DNA from: Kutzneria viridogrisea
GTDB taxonomy: Bacteria > Actinomycetota > Actinomycetes > Mycobacteriales > Pseudonocardiaceae
Length of the DNA stretch: 64,000 nt
Direction: 5' to 3'
Assembly: GCA_014138725.1 (NCBI GenBank)
Contig: JACJID010000006.1
Coordinates: forward strand, 680,001 to 744,000
Numbering within the stretch: position 1 is the stretch's first letter; each line of letters starts with the position of its first letter. Positions 9,291 to 47,305 of the stretch are shown here, piece after piece. A program made the translations under genes and the position numbers. A model generated the notes under the pieces. The model saw nothing but the letters and a program-made list of their open reading frames with translations. It had not been told where the DNA came from and made no database searches.

Positions 9291-9300
9291 CGGCCCACGT

Positions 9301-15380: not shown

Positions 15381-17015
15381 TCAGCCCCGCACCCGCCCGC
15401 CGTCCACCTCGATGTGCCGGGTGGTGTGCACGGCCTCCAACATGCGCCGGTCGTGGGTCACCAGCAGCAGCGTGCCGGGGTAGTCCGCCAGCGCCGACTC
15501 CAGCTGCTCGATCGCCGGCAGGTCCAGGTGGTTGGTGGGCTCGTCGAGCACCAGCAGGTTCACCCCGCGCGCCTGCAACAGGGCCAGCGCGGCACGGGTC
15601 CGCTCACCGGGGGAGAGCGTGTCCGCGGGCCGCAGCACGTGTGCCGCGGCGAGCCCGAACTTGGCCAGCAGGGTGCGCACCTCGGCCGGGGCCATGTCCG
15701 GCACGGCCGGGCGGAACGAGTCCAGCAGGGTGTCCGTGCCGAAGAACAGCGCGCGGGCCTGGTCCACCTCGCCGACGACAACCCCGTGACCCAGCGCGGA
15801 ACTGCCACTGGCCAACGGGATGCGGCCGAGCAGGGCACCCAGCAGGGTGGACTTGCCCGACCCGTTCGCCCCGGTGATGGCGATCCTGTCCGCCCAGTCC
15901 ACCTGGAGGTCCACCGGCCCGAGCGTGAAGTCCCCGCGCCGCACCACGGCCCCGCGCAGGGTGGCCACCACCGAGCCCGAGCGTGGGGCGGCGGCGATCT
16001 CCATGCGCAGCTGCCACTCCTTGCGCGGCTCCTCGACCACCTCCAGCCGCTCGAGCAGCCGCTCGGTCTGGCGGGCCTTGGCCACCTGCTTCTCGGTGGC
16101 CTCGCTGCGGAACTTGCGGCCGATCTTGTCGTTGTCGGTGGCCTTGCGCCGCGCGTTCTTGACGCCCTTCTCCATCCAGGACCGCTGCGTGCGGGCGCGG
16201 GCCTCCAGCGCGGCCTTGGTGTCGGCGAACTCCTCGTACTGCTCTCGGGCGTGCCTGCGGGCGACCTCCCGCTCCTCCAGGTACGCCGCGTAACCGCCGC
16301 CGTAGGTGTTGACCTGCTGCTGGGCCAGGTCCAGCTCCACCACGCTGGTCACCGTCCTGGCCAGGAACTCGCGGTCGTGGCTGACCAGCACGGTGCCCGC
16401 GCGCAGGCCGGTGACGAACTTCTCCAGCCGCTCCAGCCCGTCCAGGTCCAGGTCGTTGGTGGGCTCGTCGAGCAGGAACACGTCGTAGCGGCTGAGCAGC
16501 AGCGAGGCCATGCCGACACGGGCCGCCTGACCGCCCGAGAGCGAGCTCATCGGCTGGTCCAGGCGCACCGCCAGCCCCAGCTCGGCCACCACCTCGTCCA
16601 CCCGCTCGTCCAGGTCGGCCCCGCCGAGGGCGAGCCAGCGCTCCAGGCTGACCGCATACGCGTCCTCGGCACCCGGCTTGCCCTCACCCAGGGCCTCGGC
16701 CTCGGCGTCCATCCGCCGCTGGGCCTCGGTGACCCCGGTGCGCCTGCCCAGGAAGTCCCGCACCGACTCGCCGGGCCGCCGCTCGGTCTCCTGCGGCAGG
16801 TGGCCGACCGTGGCCGTGGGCGGGGTGAGCCGCACGCTGCCCTGCTCGGCCGGGATCAACCCGCCCAGCGTGCGCAGCAGCGTGGACTTGCCCGCGCCGT
16901 TGGCGCCGACCAGCCCGATCACGTCACCCGGTGCGACGACCAGGTCAAGTCCGGAGAACAGGACACGGTCACCGTGCCCAGCAGCGAGGTCCTTGGCTAC
17001 CAGTGTTGCGCTCAT
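15381..17015 (-). CDS. ABC-F family ATPase (ribosome-associated)
   Basis: Soluble twin-ATPase of 544 residues. ABC-F proteins bind the ribosomal E site and act as translation factors or antibiotic-resistance (ribosome-protection) proteins; no membrane segments are present. Two full nucleotide-binding domains: Walker A VGANGAGKSTLLR (about 37) and [13 protein letters not shown] (about 370), signatures LSGGQAARVGMASLLL and LSPGERTRAALALL, Walker B LLDEPTNDLDLDGL and VLDEPTNHLDLPAI. Between them is the Arg/Lys-rich linker (about 240-320). Its ATG overlaps the stop of a 52-codon repeat-derived ORF, which in turn overlaps the P-type ATPase stop. Whether it gives resistance cannot be told. Confidence 0.92.
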   Translation of the reverse strand: MSATLVAKDLAAGHGDRVLFSGLDLVVAPGDVIGLVGANGAGKSTLLRTLGGLIPAEQGSVRLTPPTATVGHLPQETERRPGESVRDFLGRRTGVTEAQRRMDAEAEALGEGKPGAEDAYAVSLERWLALGGADLDERVDEVVAELGLAVRLDQPMSSLSGGQAARVGMASLLLSRYDVFLLDEPTNDLDLDGLERLEKFVTGLRAGTVLVSHDREFLARTVTSVVELDLAQQQVNTYGGGYAAYLEEREVARRHAREQYEEFADTKAALEARARTQRSWMEKGVKNARRKATDNDKIGRKFRSEATEKQVAKARQTERLLERLEVVEEPRKEWQLRMEIAAAPRSGSVVATLRGAVVRRGDFTLGPVDLQVDWADRIAITGANGSGKSTLLGALLGRIPLASGSSALGHGVVVGEVDQARALFFGTDTLLDSFRPAVPDMAPAEVRTLLAKFGLAAAHVLRPADTLSPGERTRAALALLQARGVNLLVLDEPTNHLDLPAIEQLESALADYPGTLLLVTHDRRMLEAVHTTRHIEVDGGRVRG

Positions 17016-17170
17016 CGCCGCACCTCGCTGACGCTCGGCGCAGCGCTGCGCGCCGGCCCTGCGTTGAATGGTTCGCTCGCAAGCTCGCTCACGAGCCGCA
17101 CCTCGCTGACGCTCGGCGCGTGCTTCGCGCAGGGCCCTGTGTTGGTTGGTTCGCTCGCAAGCTCGCTCAT
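17012..17170 (-). CDS. Repeat-derived small ORF (SELASE element, two tandem copies), coupled to ABC-F
   Basis: A 52-codon ORF made of two tandem copies of about 26 codons. Copy one (17093-17170) starts MSELASEPTNTGP and ends APSVSEVRL. Copy two (17012-17092) starts VSELASEPFNAGP and ends APSVSEVRR-stop. Its start overlaps the P-type ATPase stop (TGATG) and its stop overlaps the ABC-F start (ATGA), so ribosomes could pass through all three. A related ORF in the same position before a LuxR gene is at 44703, and the first half is fused to a PAP2 protein at 40765. No domain is recognised; the peptide may serve only to keep translation running across an inserted repeat. Confidence 0.7.
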   Translation of the reverse strand: MSELASEPTNTGPCAKHAPSVSEVRLVSELASEPFNAGPARSAAPSVSEVRR

Positions 17171-19530
17171 CAGACCCGTGATGCTACTTGGGACCTCCGG
17201 CCCAGCCAGCGCTCCAGCCACAGCACGAGGGTCAGCAGCGCGGCCATGCCCACCGCGATGCCCAGGGCCACCAGGTCGTCACCGGGGTTGGCGAAGTTCA
17301 GTTGGAACTGGTCCCGGCTCCACGGCACCGCCGTGACCAGCGCGAAGCCCGCCACCATCAGCAGCACCAGGCCCGCGCGCAGCCAGGTCCACGGCCGGGC
17401 GACCAGGGCCAGCGCCCACAGCGAGGTGAGGAACAGCGCGAGCGTGGCGGTGCTCTGGTTGGCGGTCAGGTCCGAGCCGGGGTTGTTGTAGGCCAGCCAG
17501 TACGAGCCGAAGGTGGCCGCGGCGCAGGCCAGCCCGGCGGGCACGGCGAAGCGCAGCACGCGCGGCACGAAGCCGGGGCGGGCCCGCTCGGTGTTGGGCG
17601 CCAGCGCGAGCAGGAAGCCGGGGATGCCGATGGTCAGCGCGCCGATCAGCGTGACGTGCCTGGGCAGGAACGGGAAGGGCAACCCGGCCACGCCGATCAG
17701 CAGCGCCAGCGCCACCGAGTAGAAGGTCTTGGTGAGGAACAGGTTCGCCACCCGCTCCACGTTGTTGAGCACCCGTCGGCCCTCGGCGACCACGTGCGGC
17801 AGCGAGGCGAAGGAGTCGTCCATCAGCACGACCTTGGCCACCGAGCGGGTGGCCCCGCTGCCGCTGCCCATGGCCACGCCCAGGTCGGCGTCCTTGAGCG
17901 CCAGCACGTCGTTGACCCCGTCACCGGTCATCGCCACCACGTGGCCCTTGGACTGCAACGCGGCCACGAACTCGCGCTTCTGCTGCGGGGAGACCCGGCC
18001 GAACACCGAGTGGGTCTCCATGACCTCGGCCAGCTCCGCCCGATCGGTCGGCAGGGTCCTGGCGTCCACCGGGTCCTGCGCGCCGGGAATGCCCAGCCCC
18101 GCGGCCACCGCACCCACCGAGGCCGCGTTGTCGCCCGAGATCACCTTGATCGCCACGCCCTGTTCGGCGAAGTAGCGCAGGGTCTGCTCCGCCTCGGGGC
18201 GGATCCGCTGCGCCAGCACCACCAGTGCCACCGCCTCGGCGTGCTCGAAGTCGTTCAGGTCGCCGACCTTGCCCAGCACGAGCACGCGAAGTCCCTGCGA
18301 GGCAAGCTCATCGGCACCGGCCCGGTGCGCGTCCTCAGTGGACAGCAGCACATCGGCCGCGCCCATCACCCAGGACCCCTGTCCGGCGAACGAGGCCCCG
18401 CTCCACTTGCGCGCCGAGGAGAACGCCACCGAGTCGGTGACCGTCCACCCCGGATCGCCCGGCACGCCGCGCGCGATGGCCTGCATCGTCGGGTTCGGCC
18501 TGGGCTCGGCGGCGATGAGCGCGCCCACCGCGTCGCGCGCGCCCTGCTCGTCACCGGAGAGCACGCGCAGTTCCTTCAGGTCCATCGTGGCGTCGGTGAG
18601 CGTGCCGGTCTTGTCCAGGCACAGCACGTCGACCCGGGCCAGCACCTCCACCGCGGGCAGCTCCTGCACCATCGTGCGCCGCCTGCCCAGCCGCAGCACG
18701 CCCACCGTGAACGCGATGCTGGTCATCAGCACCAGGCCCTCGGGGATCATCGGCACCACGCCCGCCACGCTGCCCACCACGGCCTTGGCGAAGCTGTCGG
18801 CCGCGTTGAGCTGGCTGATCGCCAGCAGGACGCCCACCGGCAGGATCAGCCAGGTGATGTAGCCCAGGAACTTGTTGATGCCGGTCTGGAGCTCGGACTT
18901 GGCCATGCTGAACCGGCTCGCCTCCTGCACGAGCTGGGCCGCGTAGCTGCCGTCGCCCACGGCGGTCGCGGTGAACGCGCCACCGCCGGACACCACGAAG
19001 CTGCCCGACTTCACCGTGTCGCCCACGACCTTGACCACCGGGTCGGACTCGCCGGTCAGCAGGGACTCGTCCACCTCCAGCGCCGTGGCCTCGTCCAGCA
19101 CCCCGTCCACCGGGATCCGGTCACCGGTGCCCAGCAGCACGACCTCACCGAGCACCACGTCGGTGGGGGCGATCGCGGTCTCCGCCCCGTCGCGCCGGAC
19201 CCGGACCGGTTCCTGGCCCAGCACCGCGAGCCTGCCCAGCACCTGCTTGGCCCGCAGCTCCTGCACGATGCCGATCAGGCTGTTGACCAGGATCACCAGC
19301 CCGAACAGGCCGTCCTGCGGCGCCCCGAAGATCATCACGAGCACGAACAGGGCGCCCACGATCGCGTTGAACCTGGTGAGCAGGTTCGCCCGCAGGATCT
19401 GGCCGAAGGTGCGCCCACCGTCCTTGCTGGTGCGGTTCACCTCGCCGCGCGCGATCCGCTCGGCCACCTCCGCCGAGGTCAGCCCCGGACTGAGGGTGTC
19501 TTGGGTTTCAGCGCGCGCGATGGAGTCCAC
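17170..19530 (-). CDS. P-type cation-transporting ATPase (CtpE-like)
   Basis: Inner-membrane ion pump of 786 residues. Motifs in order: actuator LTGESDPV (about 170), membrane motif MIPEGLVLMTS (about 260), phosphorylation site CLDKTGTLT (about 305), and hinge MTGDGVNDVLALKDADLGVAM (about 550), then a C-terminal membrane bundle. PEGL rather than CPC/CPX argues against a heavy-metal pump. The LGRRRTMVQELPAVEVLARVD stretch and overall layout resemble mycobacterial CtpE, a calcium-related pump. GTG at 19530 is chosen; an ATG at 19569 would add a Cys/His-rich stretch. Divergent from a GNAT gene. Last codons overlap the SELASE ORF, linking it to ABC-F. Confidence 0.85.
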   Translation of the reverse strand: MDSIARAETQDTLSPGLTSAEVAERIARGEVNRTSKDGGRTFGQILRANLLTRFNAIVGALFVLVMIFGAPQDGLFGLVILVNSLIGIVQELRAKQVLGRLAVLGQEPVRVRRDGAETAIAPTDVVLGEVVLLGTGDRIPVDGVLDEATALEVDESLLTGESDPVVKVVGDTVKSGSFVVSGGGAFTATAVGDGSYAAQLVQEASRFSMAKSELQTGINKFLGYITWLILPVGVLLAISQLNAADSFAKAVVGSVAGVVPMIPEGLVLMTSIAFTVGVLRLGRRRTMVQELPAVEVLARVDVLCLDKTGTLTDATMDLKELRVLSGDEQGARDAVGALIAAEPRPNPTMQAIARGVPGDPGWTVTDSVAFSSARKWSGASFAGQGSWVMGAADVLLSTEDAHRAGADELASQGLRVLVLGKVGDLNDFEHAEAVALVVLAQRIRPEAEQTLRYFAEQGVAIKVISGDNAASVGAVAAGLGIPGAQDPVDARTLPTDRAELAEVMETHSVFGRVSPQQKREFVAALQSKGHVVAMTGDGVNDVLALKDADLGVAMGSGSGATRSVAKVVLMDDSFASLPHVVAEGRRVLNNVERVANLFLTKTFYSVALALLIGVAGLPFPFLPRHVTLIGALTIGIPGFLLALAPNTERARPGFVPRVLRFAVPAGLACAAATFGSYWLAYNNPGSDLTANQSTATLALFLTSLWALALVARPWTWLRAGLVLLMVAGFALVTAVPWSRDQFQLNFANPGDDLVALGIAVGMAALLTLVLWLERWLGRRSQVASRV

Positions 19531-19613
19531 GTACCCATGATGACGACGAATCGGGCATTGCGCACACACGGGGGGTACTCCCGTGCGCGGATCCTTGCCG
19601 TCATGATCGGGGC

Positions 19614-22111: not shown

Positions 22112-22344
22112 GAGGTGGGCCACCTCCCGGTCCGCGCATGGCGCAAGGCGTGATCGGCCAACCATAAGCCATGGTGATGGGCCAATGGGATGGGAACAGT
22201 TGGGCCGAACCGTGCAGACTGTTGTCCCCAACACCGGTCGGGGCCGAGGTCCGCGCAGCCACCCTGCCACGCGCGGCACTGCTCGTGAAGGCCCGGGACG
22301 GCGGCTGCCGCGTGCTCTGCGGGGGTAGGCACGCGACGTCGTAT

Positions 22345-22397
22345 GCCATGAAAGTGCCGTTCGTGGCGTTCAACGCCACGAACGGCACTTTCATGGC
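22345..22397. repeat. Inverted-repeat element, class A
   Basis: 26-bp perfect arms (22345-22370 and 22372-22397) around a single base, starting GCCATGAAAGTGCCGTTC. It lies 6 bp after the stop of the GH87 gene (minus strand), in terminator position. Class A relatives are at 36605-36657 and 40077-40133. Confidence 0.85.
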
Positions 22398-36546: not shown

Positions 36547-36604
36547 GACACCTCCCTGGTTCAGATAATGCCACTACCTACCCGTGAGTAGGAAGCCTGG
36601 GCAT

Positions 36605-36657
36605 GCCATGAAAGTGCCGTTCACTGCGCTCAACGCCAGCAACGGCACTTTCATGGC
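36605..36657. repeat. Inverted-repeat element, class A (decayed centre)
   Basis: 17-bp perfect arms GCCATGAAAGTGCCGTT (36605-36621) and its complement (36641-36657), with a 19-nt centre where the usual stem has lost pairing. It lies in the divergent gap between the two-SDR gene and the small membrane protein gene. Confidence 0.8.
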
Positions 36658-39013: not shown

Positions 39014-40077
39014 GTGCGCAGTCGTGTCGTCTATCCGGTTCCTGAGTTCCCCTCGCCGATGGGCGGGGTCCGCGTCCTGCACCGGCACGTCGAACTGCTC
39101 GTCGAGGCCGGGGTGGACGCCTTCGTGTGGCTGCCCACCGAGGGCTACCGCTACGGGTGGTTCGACAGCCCCGCACCCCGCCTGTACGGGGCCGAACTGG
39201 CGCTGACCGAGCACGACCTGCTCGTCGTGCCGGAGGGCGGTGTGCGGCCCGGGGTTGACCCGGCGCCGGGCGCCCGCAAGGTGATCTTCAACCAGAACCA
39301 CTTCCTGAGCTACCTCAACTTCGAGCCCGACCAGCCCTATCCCGGCTGGCAGCCCGCACCGGGGGTCTGGGTCGTCTCCCAGGAGAGCGCCGAGGTGCTC
39401 GCCGCCACCGAGCCCGAGCTGCCCTGCTCGCTCATCCCGAACCCGCTGGACCTGGACCTGTTCCGGCCCGCGGCCCAACGGGTGCGGCGCATCGCCTGGA
39501 TGCCGCGCAAGCGCCCGCTGGAGGCCAAGCTGCTCGAACGCGCGCTGCGCGCCGACCCGCGCAGCGCCGGGGTCGAGCTGGTCGCGTTGCAGGGCCTGCC
39601 GGAGACCGAGGTGGCCAGGATCCTCGGCGAGTCCTCGGCGAGTCCTCGGTGTTCCTCGCGCTCGGCCTGTACGAGGGCTTCGGCCTGCCCATCGCCGAGG
39701 CGCTCGCCTCGGGCTGCCTGGTCCTCGGCTACGCGGCCGGCGGCGGGCAGGAGCTGTTCGAGGCCCCCGGCACCTGGCAGCTGCCCGACCAGCGGCCCAC
39801 CATGCTCGCCGACGCCGCGCTGTCCATGGTCGTGGACGGGCTGCCGGACGAGGACGGGGTGCGCGCGGCCGCGCGGGACTGGGTCGCGCAGCGGTACACC
39901 GCGCAGACCGCGACCAAGGCACTGCGGACCGCCGTGGACGAGGCCATGGCCCAGCCCGGTGCGGCCTGCACCGCCGTGCACCCGATGAACCTGTCCGACC
40001 CCGAGCTCGGCGCGGGCATCATGCGCAACTTCCTGCGGGCCTTCGGCATGCCCGAGCTGCCGGTCGGCCCCCGCTGA
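39014..40077 (+). pseudogene. Glycosyltransferase gene split by an 11-bp tandem duplication
   Basis: A glycosyltransferase group-1-like protein of about 350 residues if repaired. The first frame (39014-39647) reads VRSRVVYPVPEFPSPMGGVR, then HVELLVEAGVDAFVWLP, IFNQNHFLSYLNF and PNPLDLDLFRPAAQR. At 39626-39647 the 11-bp unit GGCGAGTCCTC is repeated, shifting the frame. Removing one copy restores RILGESSVFLALGLYEGFG then LPIAEALASGCLVLGYAAGG, the donor-binding GT-B motif, through to the stop at 40077. As sequenced it makes a truncated protein with a scrambled tail. GTG 39014 follows a GGGGG run. A slippage-reversible switch or an assembly error are both possible. Confidence 0.8.
39626..39647. 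repeat. 11-bp tandem duplication causing a frameshift
   Basis: Two head-to-tail copies of GGCGAGTCCTC (39626-39636 and 39637-39647) inside the glycosyltransferase gene. Loss of one copy restores one continuous reading frame with an intact GT-B motif. Confidence 0.85.
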
Positions 40078-40133
40078 TGTCATGAAAGTGCCGTTCGAGA
40101 CATCCAGTGTCTCGAACGGCACTTTCATGACAT
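40077..40133. repeat. Inverted-repeat element, class A
   Basis: 26-bp perfect arms (40077-40102 and 40108-40133) with loop TCCAG; core ATGAAAGTGCCGTTCGAGAC. It fills the gap between the convergent glycosyltransferase and PAP2 genes, beginning in the last base of the glycosyltransferase stop codon. Confidence 0.87.
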
Positions 40134-40138
40134 GTCGG

Positions 40139-40765
40139 TCAGGGGAGGGCCATGACGCCGAAGTAGACCAGGCCGCCCGCGATCACGCCGAGGGCGGCGC
40201 CGCTGAGGACCTGCGCGGTGGTGTGGTCGGCCAACTCCACCCGTGACCAGGCGACCAGCACGGCGAGCAGGCCCGCCAGCAGCAGCCACGGGCCGTACGC
40301 GATGGCCAGCATCACCACGGCGCCCGCGGACACCGCGGCGTGGATCGAGATCTTGAACCGGGCGCCGAAGGTGATCGCCAGGCTGATCATCAGGGTCCCC
40401 AGCATCGCGGCGGTCAGCGCGATCAGCTCGCGCGGGGCACCGAACACCAGCAGCAGCACCCAGCCGGTGGCCAGCGAGGCGATGCACGCCAGCAGCGGGA
40501 CCCAGCGGCCCTCGCGGTTGGTCACGTGGTGGCCGTCCCAGCGGCCGCCGCGCGCCCCGCGCACGATGATCGCCATCGGGATCAGCGACCCGGTCAGCGC
40601 GATCAGCGCGCCCCACAGCACGGTGGGCAGCAGGGCCTGGGTGGCGTGCCACGCGATGGCGATCGGCAGCGCGCACACCCAGACCCAGGGCGCGAGTACT
40701 TCAGTGGCCAGCCGGGCGAGGACCCGGCGGGCAGTGCTGGTTGGTTCGCTCGCAAGCTCGCTCAC
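40139..40765 (-). CDS. PAP2-family membrane phosphatase-like protein with SELASE N-terminus
   Basis: Membrane protein of 208 residues with about six helices. PAP2 marks are partial: ARFKISIHAAVS (Lys and Ser-X-His-like region, about 140) and WSRVELADHTTAQVLSGA (about 180), where Ser-Arg-X5-His is kept but the usual Asp four residues later is replaced. It could act on lipid or prenyl phosphates, or be inactive. The first residues, SELASEPTSTA after the GTG start, are the SELASE repeat fused in frame, probably added to an older start nearer VLARLATEVLAPW. It starts 9 bp after the MFS stop, so the two form an operon. Confidence 0.75.
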   Translation of the reverse strand: MSELASEPTSTARRVLARLATEVLAPWVWVCALPIAIAWHATQALLPTVLWGALIALTGSLIPMAIIVRGARGGRWDGHHVTNREGRWVPLLACIASLATGWVLLLVFGAPRELIALTAAMLGTLMISLAITFGARFKISIHAAVSAGAVVMLAIAYGPWLLLAGLLAVLVAWSRVELADHTTAQVLSGAALGVIAGGLVYFGVMALP

Positions 40766-44702: not shown

Positions 44703-44783
44703 GTGAGCGAGCTTGCGAGCGAATCATCGAGCACCGCGCCCTCGGGAGTGCGCGCGCCGAGCGTCGGCGAGGTGTGCGCATGA
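44703..44783 (+). CDS. Repeat-derived small ORF (SELASE element), coupled to LuxR gene
   Basis: A 26-residue ORF starting VSELASESSSTAPSG and ending APSVGEVCA. A clear GGAGG lies about 8 nt upstream, and its TGA overlaps the ATG of the LuxR-type gene (ATGA). This is the same arrangement as at 17012-17170 before the ABC-F gene, with a single copy here. The peptide has no recognised domain; the shared feature is that the repeat supplies the ribosome entry for the next gene. Confidence 0.65.
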   Translation: MSELASESSSTAPSGVRAPSVGEVCA

Positions 44784-45822: not shown

Positions 45823-47157
45823 ATGCGTCATGATCAGCACGGCGTGCCGCTGACGGCGGCGACCCCCACCGCCGTGGCGGAGTTCGACCGCGCTGTGGAC
45901 TCCCTGCTGCACCTGCGCGCCGATGTCGGCGACCTGGCCGAGCGGGCCGTGGCCGAGGACCCGCTGCTGCCGGTGGGCAACGCGCTGCGCGTGTACCTGT
46001 CCGTGCTGAGCACCGACCCGCAGCTCGTGGTGGCCACCACCGACGAGTTCGCCAAGTTCACCAGCCTGGCCGACCCGGCCGCGATGACCGAGACCGAGCG
46101 GCTGCACCTGGGCGCGGCGGGCCGCCTGCTGCAGGGCGACCTGACCGGTGCCGCCGAGCTGCTGACCGAGGTCAGCGCGCGGCAGCCCCGGGACGCCCTC
46201 GCGCTGGCGATCGGCCACCAGCTGGACTTCCTGCTCGGTGCGGCCGGGTCGCTGCGCGACCGGATCGGCGCCGTGCTGCCCTCGTGGAGCGTCGCCGACC
46301 CGCACTTCGCGAACCTGCTCGGCATGTACGCCTTCGGCCTGGAGGAGTGCGGGCACTGGGCGGAGGCCGAGCAGACCGGGCTGCGCGCGATGGCCATGGA
46401 CGCCGCCGACGTGTGGAGCATCCACGCCGTCGGGCACACCCACGAGATGCGCGGGCGCCACGCCGAGGGCATCACCCTGTTCGACCAGCGCCGCGAGGAC
46501 TGGGACGGGGCCAACCTGATGCGCGTGCACATCTGGTGGCACTACTGCCTGTTCCTGCTCGAAGCCGGTGACCCGGACCGCGCGCTGGCGATCTACGACG
46601 CGGAGCTGGCGCCCAGCGGGTCGGAGGGCCTGCTGGAGGTGCTCAACGGGGCGAGCCTGCTGTGGCGGATGCGCCTGGCGGACCTCCCGGTGGCCGACCG
46701 CTGGCCCGCGCTGGCCGCGACCTGGCCCGCGCGCATGTCCACCCCGTTCTCCGCGTTCAATGACATGCACGCGGTGATGTGCTACGTCGGCGCGGGGGAC
46801 GAGCGCGCCGCCGAGGAGCTGATCGCCGACCGCAGGCGCTACCTCGGGCAGGTCTCCGGCAGCGTCACCAACGCGGCGATGACCGCACGGGTCGGGCTGC
46901 CGGTGTGCGAGGCGCTGCTGGCGTTCGGCCGCGAACGCTACGCCGAGGCCGTGGACCTGCTCTGGCCGGTGCGCCGCCGGGTGCACGAGTTCGGCGGCAG
47001 CCACGCCCAGCGCGACGTCGTGCAGCGCACCCTGGTCGAGGCCGCGCTGCGGTCCGGGCGCACCGAGCAGGCGCGGGTGCTGGTCGGCGAGCGGGTCAGC
47101 CTGCGCCCCGACAGCCCGTACAACCAGCTGAAGCTGAGCCAGCTGCGCCAACCCTGA
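45823..47157 (+). CDS. TTC38-like tetratricopeptide protein
   Basis: Soluble helical protein of 444 residues. ATG at 45823 is chosen because MRHDQHGVPLTAATPTAVAE is the usual opening of TTC38 family members; a much longer frame upstream overlaps the LuxR gene. Typical stretches: AIGHQLDFLLGAAGSLRDR, FGLEECGHWAEAEQTGLRAM, WSIHAVGHTHEMRGRHAEGI, HIWWHYCLFLLEAGDPDRAL. The family is conserved from actinobacteria to animals without a settled role. No ribosome site is evident, so it may be leaderless. It is followed by a class H repeat. Confidence 0.82.
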   Translation: MRHDQHGVPLTAATPTAVAEFDRAVDSLLHLRADVGDLAERAVAEDPLLPVGNALRVYLSVLSTDPQLVVATTDEFAKFTSLADPAAMTETERLHLGAAGRLLQGDLTGAAELLTEVSARQPRDALALAIGHQLDFLLGAAGSLRDRIGAVLPSWSVADPHFANLLGMYAFGLEECGHWAEAEQTGLRAMAMDAADVWSIHAVGHTHEMRGRHAEGITLFDQRREDWDGANLMRVHIWWHYCLFLLEAGDPDRALAIYDAELAPSGSEGLLEVLNGASLLWRMRLADLPVADRWPALAATWPARMSTPFSAFNDMHAVMCYVGAGDERAAEELIADRRRYLGQVSGSVTNAAMTARVGLPVCEALLAFGRERYAEAVDLLWPVRRRVHEFGGSHAQRDVVQRTLVEAALRSGRTEQARVLVGERVSLRPDSPYNQLKLSQLRQP

Positions 47158-47305
47158 AGCGCGTGTCGGACGTCCCGGTACGGCGTGTCGGCGCTGCCGG
47201 GACGGTGTGTTCGCGCTTCCGGTACGAGTTCCCGGCAGCTGGGAAACCGGCCGCCAAGTACGGACACGCGGTGCGCGAAGCGCCGACACGCGAGGGCTTG
47301 GGCTC
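47158..47305. repeat. Diverged class H repeat array, convergent gap
   Basis: Several degenerate units of the CGTGTCGG-core type on one strand (47161, 47186 and nearby), followed by inverted copies ACACGCGGTGCGCGAAG and CGCCGACACGCG near 47265-47295. Same family as the array at 2298-2442. It lies between the convergent TTC38-like and PucR genes, again in terminator position. Confidence 0.7.

Follow-up and report, generated by a model that had tools for sequence, protein, structure and literature searches.

The closest described counterparts of the repeats considered here are the MIRUs (mycobacterial interspersed repetitive units; Supply et al. 1997), which PMC12548453 presents as repeats with apparent mobility that have their insertion sites at start codons and contain an internal ORF coupled to the gene at -4 nt. 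In M. tuberculosis, the senX3-regX3 intergenic region holds MIRUs of 77 bp and 53 bp, and the MIRUs of this junction are stated to be confined to M. leprae and the M. tuberculosis complex (PMC4213456). The size of a MIRU unit is given as about 40-100 bp in parts of PMC2734929 and PMC4213456. The initial annotation of the DNA analysed here regarded a repeat that inserts before genes and preserves translation as a little-described device, a view that does not stand, since MIRUs are already portrayed in PMC12548453 as apparently mobile start-codon repeats with a coupled ORF. A literature search, from which most subscription journals were absent, returned no description of the present repeat family outside mycobacteria.

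The double repeat between a P-type ATPase and an ABC-F gene

The window, i.e., the whole stretch of 64,000 nt of Kutzneria viridogrisea DNA that was analysed, contains on its minus strand a P-type (E1-E2) ATPase ORF, a 52-codon leader ORF and a gene that is read as encoding an ABC-F type protein, for which Pfam itself gives ABC_tran (Table 1). These frames had been annotated as joined by overlapping stops and starts, and the coordinates agree with this and with the length of the small ORF: the TGA of the ATPase occupies 17172-17170 and its A is the first base of the ATG at 17170 (TGATG), and the leader TGA at 17014-17012 overlaps the ABC-F ATG at 17015 (ATGA). Pfam recognizes E1-E2_ATPase (7.3e-41) and Hydrolase (2e-18) in the segment 17173-19533. 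The leader consists, again as first described, of two tandem units spaced 78 nt, and the second unit bears a Shine-Dalgarno-like GAGGTG 5 nt 5' of the ABC-F ATG. In five other Kutzneria genomes the orthologous ABC-F start lacks the repeat and, thus, represents an empty site; the relative G003 reads ...ccctgATGAGCGCGACACTCGTAGCC, and the window genome has both units at that ATG.

A recurrence of the repeat at two other gene starts of the window had also been claimed and is borne out, one of them having a full unit on the plus strand and the other only the 5' part, at 40765 on the minus strand. The 208-aa ORF that begins within this 5' part gave no match in a Pfam search at E<=1e-5.

Table 1. 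Coordinates of the repeat units and of the adjoining genes in the window.
Feature	Position	Strand	Remarks
P-type (E1-E2) ATPase ORF	17170..19569	-	true start codon uncertain
First (upstream) unit of the tandem pair	17093..17170	-	
Second repeat unit	17015..17092	-	covariance model R1, E 1.1e-24
52-codon leader ORF, both units	17012..17170	-	ends in the ATGA overlap with the ABC-F start
Predicted hairpin CGCTGCGCC..GGTGCGGCG	17016..17045	-	covers the Shine-Dalgarno of the second unit; fold and arm pairing
ABC-F type ATP-binding protein gene (as read)	15381..17015	-	behind the repeat; Pfam ABC_tran 3.7e-42
Full repeat unit	44703..44780	+	26-codon leader; stop 44781-44783 overlaps the ATG at 44780
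Regulator gene (LuxR-type HTH), 312 codons	44780..45718	+	behind the repeat; Pfam GerE 2.3e-7
5' piece of the repeat	40743..40765	-	supplies the GTG start and first codons of the downstream ORF
208-aa ORF	40139..40765	-	begins MSELASEP from the repeat

Other repeated or structured sequences occur in the same stretch. A second repeat of about 55 nt, a near-perfect palindrome (GCCATGAAAGTGCCGTTC...GAACGGCACTTTCATGGC), is found at 22343-22397, 36603-36657 and 40077-40131, with weaker copies at 9299, 28211, 54120, 54216 and 54301; its pattern has 214 forward and 216 reverse matches genome-wide (reversed control 0), a count in which each palindrome may appear twice. Short tandem and inverted arrays at 2269-2442 and 47153-47292 are formed by a third repeat, whose period is 22 nt (CGCGTGTCGGCGCTTCCGGTAC) and which is matched genome-wide 113 times in forward and 115 times in reverse orientation, the control giving 0. 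Moreover, a cobalamin riboswitch (84.4 bits) lies at 973-1155 on the minus strand.

A repeat family at gene starts of the K. viridogrisea genome

The K. viridogrisea genome carries about 80 copies of the ~77-bp element. A 21-nt motif of its 5' end has 46 matches with at most 2 mismatches (reversed control 0), while the covariance model R1, built from 17 copies, has 87 matches at E<=1, of which the best 80 were examined; as this search scored 150 candidates, the copy number is a lower bound. The consensus reads RTGAGCGAGCTTGCGAGCGAAYCAT...GCCGAGCGYCAGCGAGGTGCGGCG followed by ATGA, and the anatomy comprises an RTGA, a leader (in most cases of 26 codons), then a Shine-Dalgarno-like core and finally a stop that overlaps the start of the next gene, again as RTGA.

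The arrangement envisaged for the window, which would preserve translation, proves to be the rule. In 56 of the 80 model matches, the RTGA at the end of the leader leads into an ORF of 50 or more codons; another 14 copies have a stop-free frame of more than 100 codons, 8 have no start codon at the first position of the model and 2 are of other kinds. The ORFs that follow the coupled copies exhibit a gene-like codon-position GC in 55 cases out of 56, the remaining one being a unit inside an array. Leaders of coupled copies are of 26 codons in 38 cases, of 12 to 28 codons in altered units and of 50, 52 or 78 codons in tandem units, the start-to-start distance being 77 nt for 26-codon coupled copies and 78 nt for frame-continuous tandem units. 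Arrays contain 2-3 units, e.g., C8:55262-55497, C3:36553-36787 or the pair in the window (17015-17170). On the upstream side, a long ORF stops at the element's own RTGA in 31 of the 51 coupled copies that are first in their array. Genes behind copies include those for aspartate-semialdehyde dehydrogenase and GMP synthase and the gene after that for CTP synthase; NCBIfam gives above-cut-off matches for these three enzymes and for aspartate kinase. At two loci (L053 and L050; C4:1022149 and C5:256853), the right end GTGATGAGC offers two overlapping start codons for the downstream gene.

Copies scattered at random positions and frames would have spoken against a repeat that inserts before genes and preserves translation, and the 46 copies found by the 5' motif, with the downstream sequence ignored, present a different picture: 37 are RTGA-coupled to an ORF, 8 run on as a long frame, and the remaining one, C3:597327, which is outside the model matches, also runs on into a long gene-like frame. 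With one of the 8 lying antisense in a gene, 45 of the 46 stand at the head of a frame that is either coupled or continuous. The element could, however, land on any RTGA and be left by purifying selection only at harmless sites, with no targeting and no benefit for the host, start codons being simply the places where a leader with its own Shine-Dalgarno does the least damage. This reading is a real possibility, if somewhat short of an even one. One run-on copy survives in antisense orientation within the ORF of an MFS-like transporter, which stays open across it (L016:723-2177; C2 near 1452254), the codon-position GC of the copy being that of an antisense frame, as selection without targeting would allow; decayed and fused copies are present as well, copy #24 having lost one base and also its coupling and copy #17 the ATG of the gene, so that the frame runs on, and the presence of the element at a site varies among relatives. 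The ratio of 45 to 1 among the motif-found copies weighs on the other side, together with the consideration, an argument and not a count, that non-coding RTGA sequences away from starts should be equally harmless.

Filled and empty sites in related genomes

The N-termini of 30 proteins encoded behind copies were searched in five other Kutzneria genomes, yielding 100 upstream stretches for 21 sites, from which site 73 was left out of the empty-site counts as the aligned segment is not the orthologue. Of the 95 orthologous starts at the 20 sites, 90 lack the element, 4 carry it and 1 bears a 5' piece, as scored by fuzzy motifs in the upstream stretch, by which a very diverged copy could pass as empty. 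The flanks of the empty sites meet at the start codon. Thus, the proposal of a mobile repeat that inserts before genes is upheld by filled and empty sites, as is an insertion exactly at start codons. At two sites some relatives carry the element while others lack it, which indicates that copies are also lost or stem from older insertions.

At the junction between the genes of aspartate kinase and aspartate-semialdehyde dehydrogenase, the relative G001 has gggcg directly followed by ATGAGC, and the own genome has gggcg, ATGAGC, the element and a further ATGAGC (...gggcgATGAGCGAGC...GCGGCGATGAGC...). Of the 19 sites that could be scored, 16 have an element whose first base equals that of the relatives' start codon, and at 3 the two disagree (Fisher p 0.005; hand tally); site 53, where the relatives disagree, was left out of this table. 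Nine sites combine a GTG in the relatives with a G as the first base of the element; at 4 of them (sites 6, 31, 45 and 78) the start at the right end is ATG, which points to an insertion of 77 bp between the R and the TGA of the start codon. The RTGA rule is not visible at site 45, as a T and not an A comes after the start codon of the relatives. Both sides of the insertion read RTGA, which fits either a duplication of TGA or the insertion of 77 bp after R.

The same data bear on the idea that the leader is an ancestral ORF inherited with each gene rather than a mobile sequence. Of six Kutzneria genomes, three, with the own genome among them, carry the element at a kinase-regulator junction (L157, L158 and L076), and three lack it there. 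This junction is read as senX3-regX3, a putative assignment, as NCBIfam gives only general below-cut-off matches for the kinase (PnpS/PhoR-like) and the regulator (YycF/MtrA/PhoB-like). The related copies that three Kutzneria genomes share at this senX3-regX3-like junction are what common inheritance would predict. However, the 90 empty starts lie within one genus and closely similar copies precede unrelated genes, so that the empty starts refute an ancestral origin for the majority of the 20 sites and leave it, as a general explanation, exceedingly improbable.

Leader peptide, Shine-Dalgarno core and hairpin

The initial annotation doubted whether the peptide itself matters, and this doubt proves justified. 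All 38 own leader peptides of 26 codons differ from one another, as do 63 of the 64 from elsewhere. Variation at codon positions 1, 2 and 3 amounts to 0.197, 0.238 and 0.215 in own codons 2-12, and to 0.240, 0.265 and 0.281 in codons 13-26, where the third position is slightly the most variable; a consistent third-position excess of variation is not seen. Moreover, the 3' half of the leader is read in another frame in other lineages, its length being kept. Because the peptides vary freely while length and overlaps are maintained, the leader ORF looks like a device for the delivery of ribosomes. A functional role of the peptide would fit the likeness of the 5' codons (SELASE) in many copies and the open state of the frame, but the diversity of the peptides, the lack of a consistent third-position excess and the use of different frames for the 3' half in different lineages largely refute it, leaving it very unlikely.

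Among the leaders of 78 nt, 37 of the 38 own ones and 59 of the 64 from elsewhere possess a GGAG, GAGG or AGGA core 4-11 nt upstream of the gene start that follows. Over this core, positions 48-56 pair with positions 69-77 in a predicted hairpin. In the 38 own elements, which comprise 28 distinct arm pairs, the arms pair at 8.11 of 9 positions within copies and at 6.64 when exchanged between copies (maximum of 3000 permutations 7.57), the corresponding figures for the total of 89 distinct arm pairs being 6.11 and 5.03 (maximum 5.47); since the copies are related, the permutation is a rough control only. Registers slid by 1-3 gave no value above their own permutation maximum, and folding energies of single copies were no better than those of shuffles (z 0.04 to 0.65). 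The evidence for the hairpin over the Shine-Dalgarno is thus its covariation, seen when pairing is compared between related copies.

These features also bear on a mainly transcriptional role, in which the element would provide the genes behind it with a promoter or operator. Some credit is lent to this role by PMC4213456, in which the senX3-regX3 intergenic region of M. tuberculosis, with its MIRUs, is reported to drive senX3-independent expression of regX3. Nevertheless, a promoter would not be expected to show precise stop-start overlaps, a conserved length of the leader or a fixed spacing of the Shine-Dalgarno, and such a role is regarded as improbable.

Distribution across Actinomycetes

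Model R1 finds copies in 7 of 7 Kutzneria genomes (E<=0.01), in 79 of 200 genomes and 28 of 46 genera of the family (E<=0.001), in 124 of 298 genomes and 35 of 77 genera of the order (E<=1e-4), and in 15 of 296 genomes and 10 of 115 genera of the class sample (E<=1e-6), 12 of these 15 genomes being outside the order. Copy numbers in the family, order and class searches are lower bounds, as only 15-23 candidates were scored per genome. Carriers of the 5' half include Kibdelosporangium, Pseudonocardia, Saccharothrix, Amycolatopsis, Actinosynnema and Labedaea, and further Rhodococcus rhodnii, Micromonospora, Actinoplanes, Catenuloplanes and Geodermatophilus.

In named genomes, 72 loci were found by the 5' half alone (19 of them from other Kutzneria; one duplicate stretch was removed), which permits the distance to the next start to be compared in related genomes, as had been suggested. 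Full coupling is seen in 58 of the 72 copies, and a leader of exactly 26 codons in 49; 4 copies extended beyond the DNA that was fetched, and of the 68 whose stop lies within it 63 end in RTGA. For comparison, 5964 random RTGA sites gave 710 coupled ones under a loose criterion and 108 with 24-28 codons. In other genera, 20 of 20 copies obey the RTGA rule with leaders of 25-27 codons, a set picked from high-scoring matches and, thus, biased to intact copies. Plasmid and phage collections gave no blastn match with one copy as query, and carriage on plasmids or phages was rejected on this search with a single query copy.

Proposed mechanism and implications

The data are probably best explained by a mobile element that is small (~77 bp) and non-autonomous and enters an RTGA start between the R and the TGA, whereupon the leader would be translated and the gene restarted. 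Of this reading, the dispersed copies, the empty sites, the position at start codons, the kept length and overlaps, the unconserved peptide, the Shine-Dalgarno core and the covariation of the hairpin were observed directly. The anatomy further suggests how translation of the leader, opening of the hairpin and reinitiation may proceed. After insertion, the old Shine-Dalgarno of the gene, or the terminating ribosome of the upstream gene, would serve the element's own RTG. Ribosomes would then read the leader of ~26 codons and open the hairpin that covers the element's Shine-Dalgarno core, stop at the TGA that overlaps the RTG of the gene and restart on the gene, the leader peptide being presumably a by-product.

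If so, start-codon-landing and translation-preserving repeats are not peculiar to bacteria of the tuberculosis complex and are common across the order, and they reach core genes. The many natural pairs of filled and empty sites lend themselves to tests of translational coupling, and the family also bears on the annotation of start codons in carrier genomes. Moreover, an answerable question is posed, namely what moves a 77-bp element onto start codons. More speculatively, and with rather low probability, MIRUs and the present family may be branches of one old actinobacterial class that actively targets R/TGA starts, perhaps via the exposed initiation region of the DNA or via an RNA intermediate, with the hairpin-masked Shine-Dalgarno making scores of genes obligately coupled and, thus, a ready-made post-transcriptional regulon.

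Comparison with known systems

The present element resembles MIRUs in the size of its unit (77 nt from start to start and 78 nt in tandem), in an internal ORF that overlaps its neighbours (downstream in 56 of 80 and upstream in 31 of 51 copies), in being dispersed, mobile and located at start codons, and in tandem copies at some loci, here as 2-3-unit arrays. Both kinds are, moreover, present at a senX3-regX3 junction, which in Kutzneria is the senX3-regX3-like one of three genomes. The element differs from MIRUs in its covarying arms (48-56/69-77), whereas MIRUs reportedly lack dyad symmetry, and in its presence in many genera of the order and a few outside. In 4 of 9 probably mycobacterial genomes, a leader ends on the start of RegX3, with 18 codons in three of them and 21 in one. 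These leaders are read as putatively MIRU-like from their place and from a length of 53 nt. Model R1 gives no match at the MIRU-like leader units of these genomes (L198-L201), a weak match in L198 lying elsewhere, and the resemblance between the MIRU-like units and the present element is confined to the short 3' end and was seen by eye only. Because R1 does not recognize the MIRU-like units, the present family is taken as a separate, wider and hairpin-bearing variant; the element seems to work like a MIRU but is not recognized as one by its sequence.

REP elements with RAYT transposases also occur as many short hairpin-bearing copies per genome. The present element shares this feature but differs in its position at start codons and in the absence of Y1_Tnp (PF01797) from the seven repeat-carrying Kutzneria genomes (0 of 7; 5 of 14 control genomes are positive), on which mobilization by a RAYT was rejected. 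Rickettsia palindromic elements and bacterial MITEs are likewise small non-autonomous repeats, many of which have open frames that can be fused in frame to genes, but they are, according to PMC2229807, of ~100-200 bp, mostly with terminal inverted repeats, and inserted between or inside genes, whereas the present element lies on start codons with a stop-start overlap. Lastly, translationally coupled short upstream ORFs deliver ribosomes to an overlapping start in the same way, as PMC12548453 describes, the difference being that the short ORF of the present family arrives as part of a mobile repeat.
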